Below are positions 21,405 through 33,702 of a DNA stretch of 64,000 nucleotides, piece by piece. The position numbers were made by a program, and so were the translations under genes. Under the pieces are notes generated by a model that was given only the letters and a program-made list of their open reading frames with translations, ran no database searches and was not told the origin of the DNA. The first letter of the stretch is position 1, and each line of letters opens with the position of its first letter. Origin of the DNA: Streptomyces aquilus (GTDB taxonomy: Bacteria; Actinomycetota; Actinomycetes; Streptomycetales; Streptomycetaceae); NCBI RefSeq assembly GCF_003955715.1, contig NZ_CP034463.1:434001-498000 (forward strand), read 5' to 3'.

Positions 21405-22832
21405 TCACCGCAGGAGGAAGTTGAGGAGGGTTTCGGTGCGCTTGTTGAAGGGGGCGCGCAGCAGCCGGGTGGCGTTCCAGCGTCCTTGTACGTAGATGCC
21501 CTTGGGGTGGCTGAGGGTGCGGAAGCCTTCGATGCCGTGGTACTTGCCCATCCCGCTGGCGCCGACGCCGCCGAAGGGGAGGTCGTCCTGCGCGACGTGC
21601 ATGACCGTGCCGTTGACGGTGACGTTGCCGGAGGTCGTGCGGTCAAGGACCTTGCGCCGCTCGGGGCCGTTGTCGCCGAAGTAGTAGAGCGCGAGCGGGC
21701 GCGGCCGTGCGTTGACGTAGTCGACGGCGTCGTCGATGTCGCGGTAACCGAAGACCGGCAGGATGGGGCCGAAGATCTCCTCGTGGGCGATGCGCATGTC
21801 GTCGGTGACGCCGAGCACGACGGTCGGTGCGAGGGTGTGCGGGCGGCGGGCCGCGTCGCCCGGCCGGTGTCCGACCTCGATGATCCGCGCCCCGTGAGCC
21901 CGGGCGTCGTCTATCAGGTCGGTGAGGATCCCGTACTGCTTGTCGTCGATGATCGAGGTGTAGTCGTCGCCGGTGGGGCCGTCGGGGTAGGCAGTCTTCA
22001 CCAGCCTGTCGTAGGCGGCGATGAAGGCGTCGATCTCGGATTCGTGCACCAAGGCGTAGTCGGGGGCGATGCAGGTCTGCCCGCCGCTGAGAAGCTTGCC
22101 GAAGACGATGTCGGACACGACCTGGTCGCGGACGTGTCCCTTGGCCACGATGGTCGGGGACTTACCTCCGAGCTCCAGCGTGACGGGGACGAGGTGGTCA
22201 CTGGCCGCCTTCATCACGGCCCGACCGACCTCGGTGCTGCCGGTGAAGACGAGATGGTCGAACGGCAGGGAGGAGAACGCGGAGCCGTCACCGCTGACCA
22301 TCGTGACCTGCTCCGGCGGGAAGAGTTCGCTCAGCATCGACGCGAGCACCGCGTTCGTGGCCGGCGTCAGCTTCGACGGCTTGAGCATCACGCGATTGCC
22401 GGCCGCGATCGCGGTGACCACGGGCATCAGCGACAGATTGACCGGATAGTTCCACGGCGAGATGACGCCCACCACGCCGAGCGGCTGGTACTCGATGCGG
22501 TTGCTGCCGAAACGCAACAGCAGCTCGATGTGGCGGTGGGTCGGGCGCATGAACCGGCGAAGGTTGCGGTGCAGGTAGTCGATGCCCTGCACGACGCCCA
22601 CGACCTCCATCAGCGCGCTCTCGTGCCGCGAGCGATGTCCGAAGTCGGCGTTGATCGCCTCCTCGATGTCGCCGCGCCGGGCTATCAGTGCCTTCTTGAA
22701 CCTGGCCAGATCGCTGCGCCGGGCGTCCAGGGAGGGCGCTCCGTCGCGGAGGTAGGCGGCGCGCTGGGTCTGGAGGATGTGCTGGAAGCGCTCCGCGTCG
22801 GTGGGCTGAGTGGTGACGTCGGTGAGGGTCAT
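21405..22832 (-). CDS. Aldehyde dehydrogenase, coniferyl-aldehyde-dehydrogenase-like
   Basis: The protein has 475 residues. Motifs of the ALDH superfamily are in place: ISPWNYP (Asn128), FTGSTEVGRAVM, VTLELGGKSP (general base Glu220) and GGQTCIAPDY (nucleophile Cys254). The GGQTCIAPDY variant and overall length are characteristic of coniferyl/medium-chain aliphatic aldehyde dehydrogenases (CalB group), which oxidise aldehydes to acids with NAD(P). It is divergent from a TetR gene across an interval with a 15-bp palindrome, so it is the likely target of that repressor. A 14-residue reading frame precedes it by 11 bases. Confidence 0.88.
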   Translation of the reverse strand: MTLTDVTTQPTDAERFQHILQTQRAAYLRDGAPSLDARRSDLARFKKALIARRGDIEEAINADFGHRSRHESALMEVVGVVQGIDYLHRNLRRFMRPTHRHIELLLRFGSNRIEYQPLGVVGVISPWNYPVNLSLMPVVTAIAAGNRVMLKPSKLTPATNAVLASMLSELFPPEQVTMVSGDGSAFSSLPFDHLVFTGSTEVGRAVMKAASDHLVPVTLELGGKSPTIVAKGHVRDQVVSDIVFGKLLSGGQTCIAPDYALVHESEIDAFIAAYDRLVKTAYPDGPTGDDYTSIIDDKQYGILTDLIDDARAHGARIIEVGHRPGDAARRPHTLAPTVVLGVTDDMRIAHEEIFGPILPVFGYRDIDDAVDYVNARPRPLALYYFGDNGPERRKVLDRTTSGNVTVNGTVMHVAQDDLPFGGVGASGMGKYHGIEGFRTLSHPKGIYVQGRWNATRLLRAPFNKRTETLLNFLLR

Positions 22833-22843
22833 GACGGCGTTCC

Positions 22844-22888
22844 TTAGCGGTTGATGAGGGCGGCGGGGACGGAGTCGACGTCGCTCAT
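22844..22888 (-). CDS. Possible 14-residue leader peptide
   Basis: ATG (22886-22888) opens MSDVDSVPAALINR and stops with TAA 11 bases before the aldehyde dehydrogenase ATG. The reading frame has host-like codons. The Shine-Dalgarno sequence is weak (GGGTG), so it may be fortuitous, or it may couple translation of the dehydrogenase. No run of one regulatory amino acid is present, so classical attenuation is unlikely. Confidence 0.3.
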   Translation of the reverse strand: MSDVDSVPAALINR

Positions 22889-22910
22889 GACATTCACCCT
22901 ACGCACTGTT

Positions 22911-22925
22911 TTGCACTGAGTGCAA
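22911..22925. promoter_or_regulatory. Probable TetR operator (TTGCACT-G-AGTGCAA)
   Basis: Seven-bp arms flank one base, between the divergent aldehyde dehydrogenase (start 22832) and tetR (start 22962). GCACTG at 22903 and TGCATTAAGT at 22931 look like flanking partial half-sites. Position and symmetry suggest the operator of the adjacent TetR protein. Confidence 0.65.
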
Positions 22926-22961
22926 GTAGATGCATTAAGTGAGACGAAGTACCATCGGTGC

Positions 22962-23552
22962 ATGACTCGGAAACCCGCCCCCATCCGGGAACAGACCCGG
23001 TCCGTGGTGCGATCGCTGCTCGCCCAGACCGCCATCGAGCTGTTCGCCGCCAAAGGCTTCGGCAACACGACCCTCGACGAGGTCGCCGCCGCAGCGGGCG
23101 TCTCCCGGCGGACCCTGTTCAACTACTTCCGCAACAAGGAAGACCTCGCGCTCAGCGGCCTGGACGAACAGGGCGAACTGATCGCCGCGCGCCTCGCCGA
23201 GCGGCCGGCCGACGAGGACGCCTGGACGGCGCTGCGCGCGGCGTTCCAGGTGCTCGAGGAGATCGACATAACAGCCGAGGGGCGCCTTGAGTTCATCTCC
23301 CTGCTGTTCGGCAACGACTCCCTACGCGCCGGACACGCCGAGAAGCAAGGCCGCTGGCAGGACCTGTTCGCACCACTGATCGAGCCGCGACTGCCCGACT
23401 CCGACCGCCGCACCCTGCAAGCCCGCGCGATCGCAGCCGCGGCGATCGTCTGCATGCAGGCAGCCAACGAGGAATGGGTACGCCTGGGCGGACAGGTCGA
23501 CATGTTCGACCTCTACGACACCGCCGTACAGGCCATCCGCCGCCCGATCTGA
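22962..23552 (+). CDS. TetR family transcriptional regulator
   Basis: The protein has 196 residues. The HTH occupies about 12-60: LLAQTAIELFAAKGFGNTTL, VAAAAGVSRRTLFNYFRNKE, with the typical TLFNYF recognition helix. The C-terminal domain is all-helical, with IVCMQAANEEWVRLGG near the end, as in MftR-like TetR proteins. It probably represses the divergent aldehyde dehydrogenase and itself and releases DNA on binding an aldehyde or related ligand; the ligand is an inference. The ATG at 22962 fits the start of the family. Confidence 0.87.
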   Translation: MTRKPAPIREQTRSVVRSLLAQTAIELFAAKGFGNTTLDEVAAAAGVSRRTLFNYFRNKEDLALSGLDEQGELIAARLAERPADEDAWTALRAAFQVLEEIDITAEGRLEFISLLFGNDSLRAGHAEKQGRWQDLFAPLIEPRLPDSDRRTLQARAIAAAAIVCMQAANEEWVRLGGQVDMFDLYDTAVQAIRRPI

Positions 23553-26279: not shown

Positions 26280-26317
26280 AAACCGATCGGTTTCCATCAC
26301 TGTAAACCGATCGGTTT
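26280..26317. promoter_or_regulatory. Two AAACCGATCGGTTT operators before SDR
   Basis: Perfect 14-bp palindromes lie at 26280-26293 and 26304-26317, with starts 24 bp apart. The first begins 18 bases before the SDR start. The same palindrome recurs at 27055, 29680, 29702, 33665 and 33689 (some with one mismatch), which identifies a local regulon. Confidence 0.85.
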
Positions 26318-26452
26318 CCTCGTGCAAGTCGAGGCGGTAACAGGCAGAGAGCGGATGCGGACGCGCCTGCGGCATGCTCGGCACCACACTTGCGGCCACA
26401 GAAGTTCGGCCGAACGCAGGGCAGGGAGAAAGCGCTCGGGAAGCGCTGCCGT

Positions 26453-27022
26453 TCAGCGCACGCCCGCCGCGTCGAGCAGGGTGATCACCGTGGGCCCGAC
26501 GAGGCCCGGCAGCGTGTCCGCCCTGATGCCGGCGCGGGCGCTGGCACCGTCGAAGACCAGGCTGAGCTGCCGGGCCAGCAGGCCCGGATCGCTCGCTCCA
26601 CCCCGCTCGGCCTCGGCACGGAAGAAGGCGGTCAGGTTCTCCTTGACCTGATGGGCGACCTGGCTCGCGGGGTGACTCTGGTCCTTGAGCTCGATCTGCG
26701 CGGCGAGGAAGGGGCAGCCGTAGAATTCGGGCATGGCCGCCTGCGATTCCACCTGCTCGAAGACGTGCAGGATCCGCTCCCTGGGGGTACGGCCGTCGTC
26801 CGCCGCGGGCAGGAGTGTCGCCACGTAGGAGGAGGTGCGCCGCTCCAGACTCGCCGCGAGCAGTTCGTCCTTGCTGTGGAACAGCTGGTACATGGAGCGC
26901 TTCGACACTCCGGCCGCCTTGCACAGCGCCTCGACGCCGATATTGACGCCCTCTCGGTACGTGAGCGTGGCCGCCGCCTCCAGCAGCCGCTCCCTGGGGC
27001 TCGGTTTCGCTTCAGTGGTCAT
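26453..27022 (-). CDS. TetR family regulator, probable AAACCGATCGGTTT repressor
   Basis: The protein has 189 residues. The HTH is at about 10-58: RERLLEAAATLTYREGVNIG, ALCKAAGVSKRSMYQLFHSK. The C-terminal domain has CPFLAAQIELKD and a helical dimer region, as in TetR_C_16-like regulators. A single perfect operator lies 33 bases before its ATG, and its gene sits between two operator-bearing transcription units, so it is the best candidate for the protein that reads all seven sites. The Cys in the YGCPF motif could be a redox or electrophile sensor; that is speculation. Confidence 0.9.
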   Translation of the reverse strand: MTTEAKPSPRERLLEAAATLTYREGVNIGVEALCKAAGVSKRSMYQLFHSKDELLAASLERRTSSYVATLLPAADDGRTPRERILHVFEQVESQAAMPEFYGCPFLAAQIELKDQSHPASQVAHQVKENLTAFFRAEAERGGASDPGLLARQLSLVFDGASARAGIRADTLPGLVGPTVITLLDAAGVR

Positions 27023-27054
27023 ACCGCGAGATTAACCCAAAGGGAAGTAAATGA

Positions 27055-27068
27055 AAACCGATCGGTTT
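27055..27068. promoter_or_regulatory. AAACCGATCGGTTT operator before tetR
   Basis: A perfect 14-bp palindrome 33 bp upstream of the tetR start at 27022 indicates autoregulation. Only one copy is present here, whereas the target promoters carry pairs. Confidence 0.8.
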
Positions 27069-27223
27069 CCGAGTGTCGTATGCGAAGAGGCTCGGCGACG
27101 GCCCGGGGGAATGGCCGTCGCCGAGCCCTGATAGTGTGCGCGCCCCTCGTCCCCGGCGGGGCGGCACACACGGGGGCCACTCCGAGTAATGGCCCCGTCC
27201 TGGGGATGCGGGGGTGGCTCCCG

Positions 27224-28510
27224 CTATGCCGGGACCGCCGGTTTCGCGGACGTCGTCTCCACCGGGATGCGGTGCAGCCCCTTGCGGTCGTACCACCCCA
27301 GCACGCCGAAGCCGAACAGCGCGGCCGCCACGAGAGCGGCTGCCATCATGACCCAGCCCCGGGCCAGACCCGCGTCGCCCTGGGCGTCGTAGTAGAGGAT
27401 CGAGCGGACGCCACCGGTGATCTGGCGCAGCGGCTCGAACTCCGCGAGGAACCGGTAGAAGCCGGGCAGCGCCTCGATGGGGGTGGTGGCCCCGGCCGTC
27501 GGCACCGCCATCCCGATGAAGACCAGCGTGACCACCAGCATGCCGGGCGTGCCGAAGACCGCGAGGAGGGTGAGCGCGCCGAACCCGGCGACCGCGACGG
27601 CGCACACCGAGTACAGCCACAGCAGCGGCAGATGGGAGGCGTCCATCCCCATGATGCCGACCGCTCCCGCCATGACCAGGCTGCCCATCACCAGGGACAG
27701 TCCGGCCATGAGGGTGCTGCTGATGGCGAGGGTCTGCACCCGGGTCGCCCGGATCAGCGGACGGTGCAGGCGCCGCGGGCCCATGTCGTTGTGGGTGTAG
27801 CCGAGGGCGTGGTCGACCTGGCCGCTGATGACGTTGGCGGAGAGCATGCCGACGACCACGAGGGTGAGCGCGTAGTAGAACGCCGTGAGGCCCAGGCCGC
27901 TGTGCGAGTCGAGCGGATGGCCGTCCTTCACCGTGACGGCAGCCGGATCGGCGAGCAGGACGCGGGCCGCGGCGGGCAGCTTCGCCTGCGCGGGTCCGAT
28001 CCGGGCGGTCAGCTCCTTGCCCACTTGCCGCGAGGCGTTCTCGGCCGCCTGGCTGGTCGCCGCCCGGGCCAGGCCGGAGCCGAGACTGCCGGCGGATTGG
28101 TTGGTGAGCACCGTCAGTGTCGGGCGGGCCGGGGTGCCGGTGGTCGTGGTGCCGGTCAGTGCGGTGACGGAGGAGGTGAAGTCGGCGGGCACCACCAGTG
28201 CGCCGAACAGCTTGCCCTCACCGAGCTCCTCCTTCAGCTCCCGCTCGTCCATCACCTTCCAGTCGATCTTGTCCCCGTTCGCGGTGGACTTCCTGATCGA
28301 CGCGGTGATCTGAGCCCCCAGGTTGACCTGGCCCGCTCCCTTGTCCGCGTTGACCAGGCCGACGGGCAGCTTGGTCATGTGACCGACCGGATCGATGTTG
28401 GCGCCGACGTAGAACACGGCGAACAGCAGCGCGAGTACGCCCGTGATGATGCCGTTGGCCATCCACAGCGGCTTGGCCCGCAGGACGCGGAAGGGGTGAA
28501 TGCCGCTCAT
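27224..28510 (-). CDS. DUF3533/YhgE-Pip-like membrane protein (ABC-2 permease type)
   Basis: The protein has 428 residues. One N-terminal membrane helix (GIITGVLALLFAVFYVGANI) precedes an extracytoplasmic domain to about residue 215 (LPVGLVNADKGAGQVNLGAQ, GALVVPADFTSSVTAL). Five hydrophobic helices follow in the C-terminal half (FYYALTLVVVGMLSANVISG, LMAGLSLVMGSLVMAG, LLWLYSVCAVAVAGFGALTL, MLVVTLVFIGMAVP, WVMMAAALVAAALFGFGVLG). This is the SNG1/YhgE/ABC-2 architecture of proteins tied to drug export or secretion. No ATPase gene is adjacent. Its ATG overlaps the stop of the 4Fe-4S gene by four bases, so the pair is translationally coupled. Confidence 0.82.
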   Translation of the reverse strand: MSGIHPFRVLRAKPLWMANGIITGVLALLFAVFYVGANIDPVGHMTKLPVGLVNADKGAGQVNLGAQITASIRKSTANGDKIDWKVMDERELKEELGEGKLFGALVVPADFTSSVTALTGTTTTGTPARPTLTVLTNQSAGSLGSGLARAATSQAAENASRQVGKELTARIGPAQAKLPAAARVLLADPAAVTVKDGHPLDSHSGLGLTAFYYALTLVVVGMLSANVISGQVDHALGYTHNDMGPRRLHRPLIRATRVQTLAISSTLMAGLSLVMGSLVMAGAVGIMGMDASHLPLLWLYSVCAVAVAGFGALTLLAVFGTPGMLVVTLVFIGMAVPTAGATTPIEALPGFYRFLAEFEPLRQITGGVRSILYYDAQGDAGLARGWVMMAAALVAAALFGFGVLGWYDRKGLHRIPVETTSAKPAVPA

Positions 28511-29631
28511 GACGTAGGTGTCTCTCGTTCGGAGGGTGCGGAACGCTTCGCCGGGGGCTGCCAGCCGCCGGTGACTTCCTTGACGGGCTTGTGGGGGAAT
28601 CGGCGCCGGGCGTACTCCTGGGCCTGCGAGCCCGGCAGGACGTAGAGCGTTTCCTTCTTCTCCTGGAGCGGTCGCAGCACGGTGTCCATGAACGACTTGC
28701 GGTCGTCCAGGTACGGGCCGAGGACGTCCTCACCGGCGGGGCAGACGGCAAGGCAGTAGCCGGACTTGTAGCCAGGGGGCGAGCTCAGGCTCTGCCACAT
28801 GGAGGCACTCTCGGAGTCGCTGACCCGGGAGCGGTAGTCGGCGGCGTCCTCGCTGTCGGCCACGGTCTGCGCCCAGTCGGTGAACCCGCTCATGAACTCT
28901 CGGTAGTTGTGCGTGGTGCAGGCCAGCCCGTTGAAGGCGCCGTCCTTGGCGATGGCGCCTACCGGGCAGGCGGCGACGCACAACTTGCAGTCGATACAGG
29001 GGTTGTAGTCCAGCGCCTGCCCGTACGCGCTCACCTCCGCGTCCACCAATACGGTCACGAGGAGGATGAAGCTGCCGAACTTCGGGTGGATGACGTTGCG
29101 GTGCAGGCCCATCACGCCGAGCCCGGCGGCCACCGCGACCGTCTTGTGCGCCACCACCCAGATCCGCTCGCGAGGGAAGCGGTCCATTTCCTGCGGGAAG
29201 CCGACGGACGGGTTGAGTGCGCGGTAGCCGGCGTCCTGGAGCGCCTGGGTGACGCTGCGGGCGGCGTGGTTGGCCTGCTCGTCGGCCTGGTGGAACTCCT
29301 GGTTGGCCACACTGCGGGCCGGGGAGCGGCAGTTGTCGCGGTTCATCCGCACCGCCATCGCGATCAGGGTGCGGGTGCCGGGCAGCGCGGACTGCACGTA
29401 CTCACGCTCGCCGGCCAGATCGGGATGGTCCAGGCTGACCGCGGCCGCGTCGTCCGCACCGGCGGCCAGACACAGGTCGCGCAGCCAGTCCGCGTCGACC
29501 ACGGGCGGTGGGCTCGCGACCTCACCCGCCGCGCGCCGGGCGAGTACCGCCTGCACCGACGGGTGGGCGGCCAGCTTCGCCGGAAGCCGGGGATTCAGCG
29601 GTGGTCCCTCGGCGTCGCGCGCGGCAGTCAT
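28507..29631 (-). CDS. 4Fe-4S protein related to QueG/reductive-dehalogenase ferredoxin module
   Basis: The protein has 374 residues. A central dicluster ferredoxin domain has CIDCKLCVAACP (Cys212, 215, 218, 222), a further Cys238 and CLAVCP (Cys293, 297), enough for two [4Fe-4S] centres. The preceding 200 residues (REYVQSALPGTRTLIAMAVR, AAGLGVMGLHRNVIHPKFGS) resemble the region before the clusters in epoxyqueuosine reductase QueG and reductive dehalogenases. It lacks a twin-arginine signal, so it is cytoplasmic. It is too divergent to be called QueG. The promoter has paired AAACCGATCGGTTT sites, and translation is coupled to the DUF3533 gene. Confidence 0.78.
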   Translation of the reverse strand: MTAARDAEGPPLNPRLPAKLAAHPSVQAVLARRAAGEVASPPPVVDADWLRDLCLAAGADDAAAVSLDHPDLAGEREYVQSALPGTRTLIAMAVRMNRDNCRSPARSVANQEFHQADEQANHAARSVTQALQDAGYRALNPSVGFPQEMDRFPRERIWVVAHKTVAVAAGLGVMGLHRNVIHPKFGSFILLVTVLVDAEVSAYGQALDYNPCIDCKLCVAACPVGAIAKDGAFNGLACTTHNYREFMSGFTDWAQTVADSEDAADYRSRVSDSESASMWQSLSSPPGYKSGYCLAVCPAGEDVLGPYLDDRKSFMDTVLRPLQEKKETLYVLPGSQAQEYARRRFPHKPVKEVTGGWQPPAKRSAPSERETPTS

Positions 29632-29679
29632 CCGTGCTCCTCGTCGCTCGGGTCCGGAACTCGGCGTCCGAACGCCGAG

Positions 29680-29715
29680 AAACCGATCGGTTCACCACCG
29701 TAAACTGATCGGTTT
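29680..29715. promoter_or_regulatory. Paired AAACCGATCGGTTT-type operators
   Basis: AAACCGATCGGTTC (29680-29693) and AAACTGATCGGTTT (29702-29715) each differ by one base from the palindrome; their starts are 22 bp apart. They lie 49-84 bp upstream of the 4Fe-4S gene start and could also control plus-strand transcription towards the SnoaL relic. Confidence 0.8.
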
Positions 29716-29977
29716 CCCCATGCAAGTGTCATGCACGGACGCAGGTTGCGGCCCCGAGCCACGAACGCCCACAAGGCCCCTCACAACAGGCGGCCTGCCC
29801 CTCTTCCCGTCGATGCTCCCGAAGCCGATGTCGTGCGGCGGTGCGGCCGCGGTCCTGCCGACAGGCTGGTCTCGCTGCTCACTGCCCGCGGTGCTCGCCG
29901 TGCCGGGACCGACGAGATCAACGAAGCGATCGCGTCCGCCCGCTCCGGCCGGGGCATCAAGCCCGTACGGGTCTTCG

Positions 29978-30310
29978 TTCTTCGCGGCCTTCCCCGACTT
30001 CGCGGCCTTCCCCGACTTCGCCGCCTTCCCCGACTTCGCCGCCTTCCCCGACCTCGTGCACCGGCCGCACCGGATCGTCGCCGCGCAGGACAAGGTCGCC
30101 GTCGAGGTCGAGGTGACCGGCACCCACGCCCAGGGCCTCACCGCGCCCGACGGCAACGCGATCCCTGCGAGCGGACGGTCCCTCCAGATCGGGCTGGCGG
30201 CGTTCCGGCACCTGCACGACGGGCGCGTCAGCGAATACCGCGTGTACTACGACTACCGCGTGGACTACGACGACTTCGATCTTCTTACGCAGCTCGGGCT
30301 GACGAACTGA
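29978..30310 (+). pseudogene. SnoaL-like protein, N-terminus lost, with FAAFPD repeats
   Basis: The C-terminal 80 residues (DLVHRPHRIVAAQDKVAVEV, EVTGTHAQGL, IGLAAFRHLHDGRVSEYRVY, LTQLGLTN) match the second half of SnoaL/steroid-isomerase-like proteins. The expected N-terminal helices and strand are not seen upstream in any frame. FAAFPD, which occurs once in the family, is here present four times in tandem. The open frame extends further upstream, but that part is unrelated and Pro/Ser-rich. It was probably once a target of the operators at 29680-29715. Confidence 0.6.
29981..30052 (+). repeat. Four tandem copies of an 18-bp unit (FAAFPD)
   Basis: TTCGCGGCCTTCCCCGAC at 29981-29998 is repeated at 29999, and again at 30017 and 30035 with one change (GCG to GCC). 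The unit is a multiple of three, so the copies add hexapeptides without a frameshift. Such arrays arise by replication slippage. Confidence 0.9.
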
Positions 30311-30427
30311 CGTATCGAGGACCGGTGTTGAGGCCGGCGTGGAGCGGGGCGCGCCCGGCCGAGGGCGTGCCCCCCTTCTGTGGCACGGTGCGCCGCCTGG
30401 CGTGCGCCCAGTCTCTCTTGCTCCCGG

Positions 30428-31108
30428 CTACTCCTCCCGCCCGCAAGCGCGGCGATCGTGGCGGCGATGGTTCGCGTCCTCCTGGGCCAGGCGCCGCAGC
30501 AGCCTGACGACCGGCTCGAACAGCACGGTGAGGACCACGGCCCGCTCGGCGAGGGCGATGCGGTCCTCGATGCCTTCGAACTGCGCGAAGTCCAGGTCCG
30601 CGGTGGCGGTGGCGAGCCGTGCGTAGGGGGCGAGGTCGTCGGCCGTGAAGTCCGTTCCGATCCGGCTCAGTTCGGCGAGACTCCGGGCGAGTGCCGGGCG
30701 GTGCGGTGAGGCGTCGGAGATCTGCCAGCCCATGTTCTCGATGAGAGCCTCGACCCTCGCGGCGGCTCCGCAGGACGCCGCCTCGTCGACGCCGCCCTCC
30801 GGCCCCTCACCCTTCCCCTCATTCGTCTCCGCGGAAGGAACGGGCAGGGCGTGGTGAACGACGCCCAGGGTCTCGAACGCGTCCAGTGGACGGTCGACGG
30901 CTTCCAGCACTTCACGGGTGCGGGCGACCGACAGCCCCCCGAGCTGGATGAGGGAACGGATCAGACGGAGCCGCTCGATGTGCTCCTCGTCGTACTCGAC
31001 CGTGGTCGGGTTCAGCGCACGTCCCTCCGGGAGAAGCCCCTCCCGTCGGTAGTACTTGATGGTCGCCACCGGCACCCCGGACCGCCGGCTGAGCTCTGAA
31101 ATCCTCAT
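30428..31108 (-). CDS. MerR family transcriptional regulator
   Basis: The protein has 226 residues. The MerR HTH is at 1-70: MRISELSRRSGVPVATIKYY, RREGLLPEG, then EHIERLRLIRSLIQLGGLSV. The C-terminal part is an acidic linker (ETNEGKGEGPEGG) and a helical effector domain without the Cys of metal sensors, resembling regulators that respond to organic ligands. It is divergent from the DUF6230 operon, and palindromes with MerR-like spacing lie between them. The ATG at 31108 follows GAGGGAG; a GTG four codons earlier is possible. Confidence 0.87.
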   Translation of the reverse strand: MRISELSRRSGVPVATIKYYRREGLLPEGRALNPTTVEYDEEHIERLRLIRSLIQLGGLSVARTREVLEAVDRPLDAFETLGVVHHALPVPSAETNEGKGEGPEGGVDEAASCGAAARVEALIENMGWQISDASPHRPALARSLAELSRIGTDFTADDLAPYARLATATADLDFAQFEGIEDRIALAERAVVLTVLFEPVVRLLRRLAQEDANHRRHDRRACGREE

Positions 31109-31171
31109 GCGCTCCCTCACGCTCAACTGTCCCTCCAGTATCGCGTTACCGGGGGTTGCCCCACCGAGCTC

Positions 31172-31212
31172 GATAGTGCCACTATCAGGCACTCGATAGT
31201 GGAGCTATCGAG
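31172..31212. promoter_or_regulatory. Two palindromes in MerR/DUF6230 divergent promoter
   Basis: GATAGTG-C-CACTATC (31172-31186) and CTCGATAG-N5-CTATCGAG (31192-31212) share the CGATAGTG core. They sit 64 bp from the merR start and 72 bp from the DUF6230 start. MerR proteins bind such dyads within promoters with a long spacer. Confidence 0.65.
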
Positions 31213-31284
31213 TTCTGCCTCGGCGCGCCCTCGTTGCGCACCCGGCCTCTCACCCTCGTACGCCTTGATATCGGAGGACCACGC

Positions 31285-31899
31285 ATGTCCCAGCGAATCG
31301 GCAAGACCCACTGGAAGCGTTTCGCCGTGGGTGCGGTGCCGACAGTGGCCGCCACCGCGGCGGTTGCCGTCTCCATGGCCCAGGGTGCGCTGGCCGCTTC
31401 GTTCAGCATCTCCGGTTCCGACTTCAAGGTCTCGGCAGGCTCCCTGAGCGGCAGCGGATTCGCCAACTACGCCACGGTGGACGTCGCCAAGAACGGCAAG
31501 CACATACCCGTCTCCGTGTCGGCCCTCGACAACGCGAAGATCACCAACATGTGCCAGTCCGTGCCGGTGGACATTCCCGTACTCGGGACCTACACGATGA
31601 CCCTCAAGGCCGGCGGGGACGGGACCGCGGTCAAGGCCAAGGACCTGTTCATCGACATGACCGATCTTCAGGCCAAGAAGGGCACCTTCAACAACGTCGA
31701 CATCGGCGTCGCCACCGGCTCCATCACGAAGGGCCACGTCAACCCCAAGGACCGCGTCGATCCCGACAACTACGCCCAGCAGGCGGACTCGATCGAGATC
31801 ATCGACGCCCACCAGAGGGTCTGGGCCACCACCGCAGGGACGTTCGAACTGTCGGGCCTGCACATGAACATCGCGGCCGGCCGCCACGACTGCTTCTGA
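31285..31899 (+). CDS. DUF6230 family secreted protein
   Basis: The protein has 204 residues. A cleavable signal (VGAVPTVAATAAVAVSMAQGALA) is followed by a beta-rich domain: SFSISGSDFKVSAGSLSGSG, VDVAKNGKHIPVSVSALDNA, MTLKAGGDG and HQRVWATTAGTFELSGLHMN. Two Cys (NMCQS and the terminal HDCF) could form a disulfide. This matches DUF6230, a Streptomyces family sometimes mislabelled cholesterol esterase; its function is unknown. GGAGG lies upstream of the ATG. It is the first gene of a three-gene operon and faces the MerR regulator. Confidence 0.85.
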   Translation: MSQRIGKTHWKRFAVGAVPTVAATAAVAVSMAQGALAASFSISGSDFKVSAGSLSGSGFANYATVDVAKNGKHIPVSVSALDNAKITNMCQSVPVDIPVLGTYTMTLKAGGDGTAVKAKDLFIDMTDLQAKKGTFNNVDIGVATGSITKGHVNPKDRVDPDNYAQQADSIEIIDAHQRVWATTAGTFELSGLHMNIAAGRHDCF

Positions 31900-31951
31900 C
31901 CCTCGCTCCCACTTCCCCTCCCCCACCCGTTCACGACCTGGGAGCCTCTCC

Positions 31952-32410
31952 ATGACGAGTGCCGGCGCATCCGCGCACCCCCACAGAGACAGCGGCTTCG
32001 CCAGTGCTCGCCAAGCCTTTCGGACCTGGCGGCGCACCCGCCCCTTCTGGGCGGGTCTGCTGGTGCTCCTCGCCGCCGCACCCATCATTTACTTCCCATA
32101 CTTCAACCTCTCCCTGGGCGCCCTGTCCGTGGCGATGTCCACGACGGCCGGCGCGGGCTCGCTGATCATCGGCCTGACGCTGATCGTCCTCGGCGGACTC
32201 CTCTGGTTCCAGCCGATCATCAGGTTCTTCGCCGGATGCGTCGCGATCTTCCTCGGCGTACTGTCGCTTCCCGTCTCCAACTTCGGCGGCTTCTTCTTCG
32301 GCACCCTGTTCGCGGCCACCGGCGGGCTCCTCGCCCTGGCGTGGGGCCCGGTCGACGCGGACCTGCCCGAGGACATCGCCGCCACGGAGGGAGAGCCGGG
32401 GAATGGCTGA
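31952..32410 (+). CDS. DUF6114 family membrane protein
   Basis: The protein has 152 residues. After a charged cytosolic start (RTWRRTRPFW), four hydrophobic segments follow: AGLLVLLAAAPIIYFPYFNL, LSVAMSTTAGAGSLIIGLTL, GLLWFQPIIRFFAGCVAIFL and FGTLFAATGGLLALAWGP. This is the DUF6114 pattern, regularly found beside DUF6230. It may anchor or organise the secreted DUF6230 protein at the membrane, which is inferred from gene order. Its stop overlaps the next start by eight bases, indicating translational coupling. Confidence 0.82.
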   Translation: MTSAGASAHPHRDSGFASARQAFRTWRRTRPFWAGLLVLLAAAPIIYFPYFNLSLGALSVAMSTTAGAGSLIIGLTLIVLGGLLWFQPIIRFFAGCVAIFLGVLSLPVSNFGGFFFGTLFAATGGLLALAWGPVDADLPEDIAATEGEPGNG

Positions 32411-33620
32411 ACCGTCGTCCCACCTCCACGGCGAGACCGCGGAAACCCACGTCACCCGGTCCCCGCGAGGCCGCCACGCCCTGCCTCGCGCCTCCGCGCT
32501 GACCCGCCTGCGTCTGCCGCTCGGAAAGGCGCTCGCGCTGACCGCGCTGCCGACCGCCCTCGTCCTGGGGAGTCAGCGTCCGCCCACCGTCGACACGAGC
32601 GCCACCACCGCGCAATCCGTGCCCGAAGAGGCGGCCGAGAGCGGGGTCGACTGCGACCGCACCGACGCCCCGTCGAAGCCCACCGTGACGCCGACACCCT
32701 CGGCTGCTCCCGCCACGCCCAGTGCCGCTCCGAGCGAACAGCCCGTCAAGCCGACGGAGCACACGGCTGAAACGCCCCTCACGCCGGATCCGCCCCCATC
32801 ACCGGGCACCCCCTCCGCCACCCCTACCCTCACCGGTCTCGCGGGACTCCTCGACCCCCTCTTCGGCGGCGACACCGAGCAGCAGAGTCCGGCACCCGCC
32901 ACACCTGCGTCGCCGACCTCGGCCGCGCCGACGCCAATACCCAAGGCCACGCAGTCGACCACTCTCCCGGCAGCCCCCTCCCCGAGCCGGCGGACCACCT
33001 CCCCGGCAGCCCCCTCCACGAGCCAGCGGACCACCTCCGCATCACCCCTGCCGCACCCCGCGCAGTCACCCCAAGGGACCGACCGCACCTGCGACATCAG
33101 CGATCTCGCGGCACCCAGGGACAAGAGCGCCGGTCGCTTTGCCGCCGAGTCCTGGAACATGAAGGGGAGCCATCTCGAACTGCGCGACGTCGTCTTCGGC
33201 GGTGTGGTGACCGTGGACACGGCCGCCGGCCCCAAGCGGGTGCTCAAGTTCTCCGCGGCGGGCGTCACGATCCGCGACCTGAAGATGGCCGTACCCGTCA
33301 GCCCGCAGATCCAGCACATCGACGGAGCCCCCGGCTCGACGTCCACGCTGCAGGGCGACCGCATCACCATGTACGTCGAGAGCCTGACGGGCACGCTCTC
33401 CGGCGCCGAAGGGATTCCCCTTCCCCCCGTCCTCCGCCTCCACCTCACCCCCGACACCGTTCCGGAGTGGCTCTACGACACCGTCGGGAAGCTCGACCTC
33501 AAACTCCAGCTCGCCCTGGACGACGCCGACATCGACCAGGCCGGACAGACAGGCGGAAAGCTCATCATCCCGGGGATCCACGGATACGGAACCATCGAAA
33601 CCAGCGGAACCACCCCCTGA
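32403..33620 (+). CDS. Pro/Thr-rich surface protein of the DUF6230 operon
   Basis: The protein has 405 residues. An N-terminal hydrophobic stretch (LGKALALTALPTALVLGS) behaves as a signal or anchor. Residues 65-225 are low-complexity Pro/Thr/Ser/Ala, resembling a wall-spanning linker, and include a 12-residue tandem repeat. The C-terminal 170 residues (WNMKGSHLELRDVVFGGVVT, LKFSAAGVTIRDLKMAVPV, LHLTPDTVPEWLYDTVGKLD) form a beta-rich domain resembling the layered strands of DUF6230. I know no named family. Together the operon looks like an envelope system of unknown role. Confidence 0.75.
   Translation: MAEPSSHLHGETAETHVTRSPRGRHALPRASALTRLRLPLGKALALTALPTALVLGSQRPPTVDTSATTAQSVPEEAAESGVDCDRTDAPSKPTVTPTPSAAPATPSAAPSEQPVKPTEHTAETPLTPDPPPSPGTPSATPTLTGLAGLLDPLFGGDTEQQSPAPATPASPTSAAPTPIPKATQSTTLPAAPSPSRRTTSPAAPSTSQRTTSASPLPHPAQSPQGTDRTCDISDLAAPRDKSAGRFAAESWNMKGSHLELRDVVFGGVVTVDTAAGPKRVLKFSAAGVTIRDLKMAVPVSPQIQHIDGAPGSTSTLQGDRITMYVESLTGTLSGAEGIPLPPVLRLHLTPDTVPEWLYDTVGKLDLKLQLALDDADIDQAGQTGGKLIIPGIHGYGTIETSGTTP
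32966..33037 (+). repeat. 36-bp tandem duplication in Pro-rich linker
   Basis: Two adjacent 36-bp copies (32966-33001 and 33002-33037) differ at two positions and encode AAPSPSRRTTSP and AAPSTSQRTTSA. This is an in-frame length variation in a low-complexity linker. Confidence 0.75.
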
Positions 33621-33664
33621 ACCCAGCCCCACGCGACCATCTCCCTCGACGAGCTTGCGCTTGG

Positions 33665-33702
33665 AAACCGATCGGTTTACCGTGATGTAAACCAATCGGT
33701 TT
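33665..33702. promoter_or_regulatory. Paired AAACCGATCGGTTT operators before second SDR
   Basis: AAACCGATCGGTTT (33665-33678) and AAACCAATCGGTTT (33689-33702) have starts 24 bp apart, the same spacing as at 26280-26317. They end 20 bp before the SDR ATG. This places the SDR in the regulon of the TetR protein encoded 6.6 kb away. Confidence 0.85.

Follow-up and report, generated by a model that had tools for sequence, protein, structure and literature searches.

A candidate palindromic operator of a TetR subfamily, paired at predicted target promoters, in Streptomyces aquilus and related actinomycetes

The LmrA and QdoR paralogs have common boxes, and an MFS drug pump is among their targets. 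QdoR of Bacillus subtilis, a TetR-family protein that represses itself, has a single operator at its own gene, and its target qdoI has two (PMC8481877). Another TetR-family protein, TTHB023 (PfmR) of Thermus thermophilus, has a tested consensus site of CTGACCGATCGGTCAG, with a dissociation constant of about 2 nM (PMC7022988). A divergent-pair rule for TetR proteins assigns to the regulator a divergent gene within 200 bp (PMC3511530). Here, a 64-kb stretch of the Streptomyces aquilus genome (contig NZ_CP034463.1, positions 434001-498000; hereafter the window) is analysed, in which a 14-bp palindrome, AAACCGATCGGTTT, recurs at a gene for a TetR-family protein (tetR) and in pairs before two short-chain dehydrogenase (SDR) genes and an operon for a 4Fe-4S protein and a DUF3533 membrane protein.

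The predicted regulon shares with the LmrA/QdoR (YxaF) regulon the layout of a single operator for the regulator gene and a pair for each target. In contrast, the window TetR is only weakly similar to YxaF (PDB 1sgm, E 3e-4), too weakly for a close relative, and the predicted targets are SDRs, a QueG-like 4Fe-4S protein, a DUF3533 protein, an MFS pump and a hydrolase; Pfam and NCBIfam scans found no quercetin dioxygenase among the target proteins of this genome. Since kinship to YxaF is weak and the targets differ, the locus is not assigned to that system; by analogy, it would be a regulon that works like the LmrA/QdoR regulon yet is not filed as a member of it. The TTHB023 site has the core ACCGATCGGT in common with the palindrome; the outer bases differ, and the mapped TTHB023 targets include fatty-acid biosynthesis genes (PMC7022988), unlike those here. 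The nearest solved sequence to the window TetR is PDB 3jsj (E 2.2e-89, residues 1-187), which is named only 'Putative TetR-family transcriptional regulator'; no mention of this code was found in the open-access literature searched. The 200-bp divergent rule does not hold in the window, where tetR and the gene upstream of it share a strand and the paired promoters are found elsewhere. No description of the operator or the regulon was found in the open-access literature searched, with most subscription journals outside its scope, and the regulon seems uncharacterised so far, though of a familiar type.

Occurrence of the palindrome

The palindrome is very likely the operator of a TetR subfamily that would repress its own gene and targets with paired operators, with a paralog as co-repressor. 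The window holds seven copies, four exact and three with one change (Table 1). Three loci carry pairs, with start-to-start spacings of 24, 22 and 24 bp, and the tetR promoter carries a single copy. The sequence-only reading of this DNA had described exactly this set, and all of its positions, match grades and pair spacings (22-24 bp) were reproduced. No other match within three changes was found in the window; in 100 dinucleotide shuffles of it, such matches numbered 0.92 on average and never more than 3. The genome, a single contig of 10.39 Mb, contains 12 sites when one change is allowed: the seven of the window and five that form a second cluster, with none outside the two. An independent-base model with an assumed guanine-plus-cytosine (GC) fraction of 0.71 predicts 0.24 by chance; the measured GC fraction of the window is 0.69. 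Thirteen more sites contain exactly two changes; they are dispersed, with nearest-neighbour distances of at least 32.7 kb, so there are no additional pairs among them. The sequence-only reading had asked whether a genome scan would uncover more targets, and had named equal abundance at unrelated promoters as the outcome that would overturn it. The scan does reveal more candidate targets, in the second cluster, and such abundance is not seen, because the 12 sites fall in two clusters and the two-change sites are isolated.

The palindrome and the regulator also occur together across the genus. In a draw of 121 genomes, the present one included, a TetR at least 62% identical to that of the window is present in 34. 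Sites with up to one change occur in all 34 of these (202 in total), and 33 hold two or more. The other 87 genomes hold 21 sites in all, in 19 genomes, two of which hold two; this rate, 0.24 per genome, is the same as the 0.24 expected by chance under the same assumed GC fraction.

The position of the palindrome relative to tetR is conserved as well. In a sample of 121 loci (the window, the second-cluster locus L013, 40 genus regions and 79 named contigs), 138 tetR matches were found, 116 of them at 70% identity or more and 111 of these with distinct upstream sequences (the two of this genome included). An operator lies within 150 bp upstream of tetR in 107 of the 111 distinct regions (97 exact, 10 with one change), and in 102 the best match stops exactly 32 nt short of the start codon; 101 of these best matches have no more than one change. 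When all 111 regions are aligned at the start codon without selection, the information content is 1.66 bits per base in the operator columns, 1.19 in the 32 nt between them and the start codon, and 0.20 at positions -150 to -61; the operator value is 1.95 bits per base in the 102 regions chosen for an operator at 32 nt. Twenty-two remoter tetR genes (50-70% identity) have best matches that are exact (three), or contain one (13), two (five) or three changes (one). The block GGTTAACCTCGC, also conserved, stands directly before the tetR start codon and resembles a -10 box, as expected if the promoter is leaderless.

It could be argued that some other regulator binds the palindrome and that its closeness to tetR reflects a common neighbourhood, since a MerR gene (30428-31192) and an MftR-like TetR gene (22920-23552) are nearby. 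However, the sites track this TetR across the 121 genomes, the best match keeps its fixed distance from the tetR start codon in 102 of 111 regions, and pairs away from tetR also occur in TetR-bearing genomes. Binding by another regulator is, as a result, extremely improbable.

Paired candidate operators and predicted promoter anatomy

Pairs of the candidate operator have a narrow spacing. Among 180 distinct pairs (starts at most 60 bp apart), the spacing is 24 bp in 111 and 23 bp in 31; the rest are spaced by 22, 25 or 26 bp (18 pairs), 30-35 bp (17) or 45-55 bp (three). In 51 oriented 24-bp pairs with full context, operator 1 occupies columns 0-13 and operator 2 columns 24-37, with TTGC at -10 to -7 and a TAC.GT-like motif at 13-18. 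The conservation of the operators in this set is a product of pair selection, whereas that of the two boxes is not. Operator 1 fills the 17-bp spacer between a -35 box (TTGC) and a -10 box (TAC..T), and operator 2 covers the predicted transcription start. The offset of TTGC in 182 pairs is -10 in 130 and -11 in 38, with two or fewer at each of 15 other offsets, and the strict two-box pattern is found in one orientation in 129 pairs and in both orientations in none. Both boxes are present on 125 pair sides, 121 of which have a target family downstream (SDR2 49, SDR1 32, the 4Fe-4S gene 26 and the hydrolase 14) and four of which have none. Four of the five paired promoters of this genome (the three of the window and that of the hydrolase) fit strictly; the MFS promoter has a -35 box shifted by one and an imperfect -10 box.

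This anatomy bears on the sign of regulation. Some TetR-family proteins activate, for instance AtrA (PMC3511530), and the window TetR might likewise be an activator of its targets. Copies in the spacer and over the predicted start, however, take up positions that normally block polymerase, and activation is very unlikely. Around sites elsewhere, 15 more regions were taken, with pairs in eight and single sites only in seven; by eye, four of these pairs show TTG, operator and TAC..T in order before SDR2 (L163, L172), a hydrolase (L170) and DUF3533 (L165). Members of the regulon can thus be dispersed.

A second cluster and a second candidate repressor

The second cluster (genome 9267037-9268832, five sites) lies 8.8 Mb from the window, on the opposite chromosome arm. 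It encodes a TetR of 189 amino acids (L013:7436-8005) that is 76% identical to the window TetR and has one exact predicted operator upstream. Also encoded there are an MFS pump and, divergently, an alpha/beta hydrolase, and both have an operator pair. The pump is EmrB/DHA2 drug-pump-like, with 216.8 bits, just below the cut-off of 230.2. The presumed DNA-reading helix is SKRSMYQLF in the window TetR and SKRSMYKLF in the paralog, one residue different, and the two paralogous TetRs very probably read the same operator. The regulon had been proposed as a local one under a single repressor. It extends past the window, and sole control by the window TetR is doubtful because the second cluster has a paralogous TetR with the same operator.

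In a 132-row tree, the second-cluster TetR falls in its own clade of 19 rows (support 99/97). The MFS gene is near TetR in 17 of these 19 rows and in 16 of 92 other rows at 70% identity or more, 11 of which sit in loci with both TetR types. In MFS promoters (L013 9695-9732 and relatives), the two inner half-sites often both deviate by a base, giving AAACCGATCTGTTT / AAACAGATCGGTTT; this alters the pair mirror-symmetrically and was seen in 13 cases. This variant could favour one paralog, and both clusters include a tetR gene with an operator before it. Accordingly, there might be two separate regulons, each paralog ruling its own cluster and the common operator being a leftover of duplication. 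We consider this unlikely, though well ahead of the other alternatives, as the MFS-linked clade, though distinct, keeps the exact operator at 18 of 19 tetR genes, with a single change in the remaining one, and 13 loci hold both TetR types. One operator common to two old paralogs suggests instead joint control of the targets by two sensors.

Rows from Nonomuraea, Frankia, Pseudonocardia, Saccharothrix and Trebonia, named genomes of which also carry the TetR subfamily, stand among Streptomyces rows in the tree, where many forks are weakly supported. This placement suggests transfer of TetR between genera. Plasmid carriage was rejected as the cause of the spread: among 72,556 plasmid records, the single match at E 1e-30 was to a 1.16-Mb plasmid of Streptomyces chartreusis, with 63% identity.

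In the mechanism that we favour, with the palindrome as the operator of both paralogs, a TetR dimer would bind the single copy at tetR, which overlaps the upstream part of the probably leaderless tetR promoter, and thereby repress its own synthesis. At target promoters both copies would be occupied, one dimer in the 17-bp spacer and the other on the transcription start, so that RNA polymerase would be shut out. A small-molecule inducer would bind the C-terminal domain of TetR and release the repressor. This release would switch on the two SDR reductases and the QueG-like 4Fe-4S protein with its DUF3533 membrane protein, and also the MFS pump and the alpha/beta hydrolase of the second cluster. 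The paralog, with its near-identical DNA-reading helix and the same operator, would very likely co-repress the set, resulting in a two-sensor regulon.

Several observations weigh against this mechanism or narrow its support. The 121 loci were picked because they carry this TetR, so that the locus counts describe TetR carriers only. One of the 111 tetR upstream regions has an operator with two changes, and three (L139, L112 and L062) have no recognisable operator, their best matches containing 4, 7 and 7 changes. In the deeper-clade loci L064, L070 and L079, no site within one change was found in 18 kb around tetR; their genomes do have sites elsewhere. Gene calls alone orient 83 of 173 pairs, with 42 ambiguous and 48 without a called gene. 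The strict two-box pattern is missing in 53 of the 182 pairs, and both boxes are not found together on 23 of 23 MFS sides, 10 of 24 hydrolase sides, 18 of 67 SDR2 sides, 7 of 39 SDR1 sides and 6 of 32 4Fe-4S sides. Joint control by two sensors is, moreover, a conclusion drawn from sequence.

Within the deeper TetR clade (L065-L083, e.g. L066 8734-12490), most pairs have a spacing of 30-35 bp, and in many loci tetR adjoins a gene for an AAA ATPase that by eye is MoxR-like.

The proposal describes an operator and a promoter layout precisely enough to be tested, for a TetR subfamily found in 34 of 121 genus genomes, and points to targets beyond the reach of the divergent-neighbour rule. It could supply Streptomyces work with a tightly regulated promoter, and it places an orphan QueG-like iron-sulphur protein in an apparently inducible response.

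Predicted targets and neighbouring features

The window TetR has an N-terminal TetR_N helix-turn-helix above the curated cut-off (Table 1), and its C-terminal Pfam match, TetR_C_13, is below its own. SDR1 and SDR2 belong to subfamilies of oxidoreductases without a named function. Relatives of SDR1 lie downstream of 39 pair sides, those of SDR2 of 67 and those of the 4Fe-4S gene of 32, and both promoter boxes are present in 32, 49 and 26 of these, respectively. The DUF3533 gene overlaps the upstream 4Fe-4S gene by 4 bp.

Table 1. Predicted regulon features of the window (positions counted from its first nucleotide)
Feature	Position	Strand	Remarks
SDR1, short-chain dehydrogenase, PRK06179 subfamily, 272 amino acids	25444..26262	-	NF004823, 398.3 bits, cut-off 310
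SDR1 operator 2 (predicted)	26280..26293	.	exact; over predicted start
SDR1 -10 box TACAGT (predicted)	26299..26304	-	column pattern conserved in pairs
SDR1 operator 1 (predicted)	26304..26317	.	exact; inside -35/-10 spacer
SDR1 -35 box TTGCAC (predicted)	26322..26327	-	
tetR, TetR-family repressor (predicted), 189 amino acids	26453..27022	-	PF00440, 37.3 bits, cut-off 24
tetR -10 box TAATCT (putative)	27029..27034	-	conserved GGTTAACCTCGC-like block, -15 to -4 in relatives
tetR operator (predicted)	27055..27068	.	single, exact; 32 nt from start codon
DUF3533 (YhgE/Pip-like) membrane protein	27224..28510	-	second gene of 4Fe-4S operon; PF12051, 183.8 bits
4Fe-4S protein, distantly epoxyqueuosine reductase-like, 374 amino acids	28507..29631	-	first gene of operon
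4Fe-4S operon operator 2 (predicted)	29680..29693	.	one change
4Fe-4S operon -10 box TACGGT (predicted)	29697..29702	-	
4Fe-4S operon operator 1 (predicted)	29702..29715	.	one change
4Fe-4S operon -35 box TTGCAT (predicted)	29720..29725	-	
SDR2 -35 box TTGCGC (predicted)	33655..33660	+	
SDR2 operator 1 (predicted)	33665..33678	.	exact
SDR2 -10 box TACCGT (predicted)	33678..33683	+	
SDR2 operator 2 (predicted)	33689..33702	.	one change
SDR2, short-chain dehydrogenase, PRK08264 subfamily, 233 amino acids	33723..34424	+	NF006119, 365.1 bits, cut-off 249

The 4Fe-4S protein matches PDB 5d6s, an epoxyqueuosine reductase, with E 2.2e-10, and scores 48.9 bits against TIGR00276 (QueG), for which the cut-off is 200. 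The queuosine precursor is inserted by TGT (PF01702). A search for TGT gave no match in this genome and matches in 14 of 14 control genomes. Being far below the QueG cut-off in a genome with no detectable TGT, the 4Fe-4S protein is unlikely to serve queuosine. Since the targets mix reductases, a hydrolase and a pump, the regulon is perhaps a detoxification response against a toxic compound. A wider proposal, which we put forward as tentative, is that two old TetR paralogs, each with its own inducer, act through one operator on targets on both chromosome arms, that the system has spread among actinomycetes, and that the QueG-like protein is a new inducible reductive detoxification enzyme.

The sequence-only reading had placed tetR itself, SDR1, SDR2, the 4Fe-4S/DUF3533 operon and a SnoaL-like relic under TetR. 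All but the relic are supported by co-occurrence, positional conservation and promoter anatomy. The relic is a real fragment (PF07366, 45.4 bits, profile positions 50-119 of 126), but it is not a supported target, because the 29680/29702 pair has both of its boxes on the minus strand, pointing to the 4Fe-4S gene, and the plus strand has neither; a promoter of another kind might still serve the relic. A tblastn search of the 121 loci (E up to 1e-5) found its 73-residue piece only in the window. Inside the relic, at 29980-30055, is a short tandem repetition of a CTTCCCCGACTTCGCNGC-like unit.

A block at 30428-33620 comprises a MerR regulator divergent from DUF6230, DUF6114 and proline-rich protein genes. 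It had been regarded as unrelated, and this stands: no site within three changes lies inside it, and its membership in the regulon was rejected. By eye, the start of an open reading frame of L045 (12204-13250) resembles a C-terminal piece of this block's third gene. At 21405-23552, an aldehyde dehydrogenase gene (PF00171) is divergent from the MftR-like TetR gene, a separate and classic divergent TetR pair. In the second-cluster locus, an SbtR-like TetR gene (PF21597; L013 10780-11491) is preceded, by eye, by CCTCCGTTTTA/TACGGAGG inverted-repeat-like motifs, which are seemingly a different operator.

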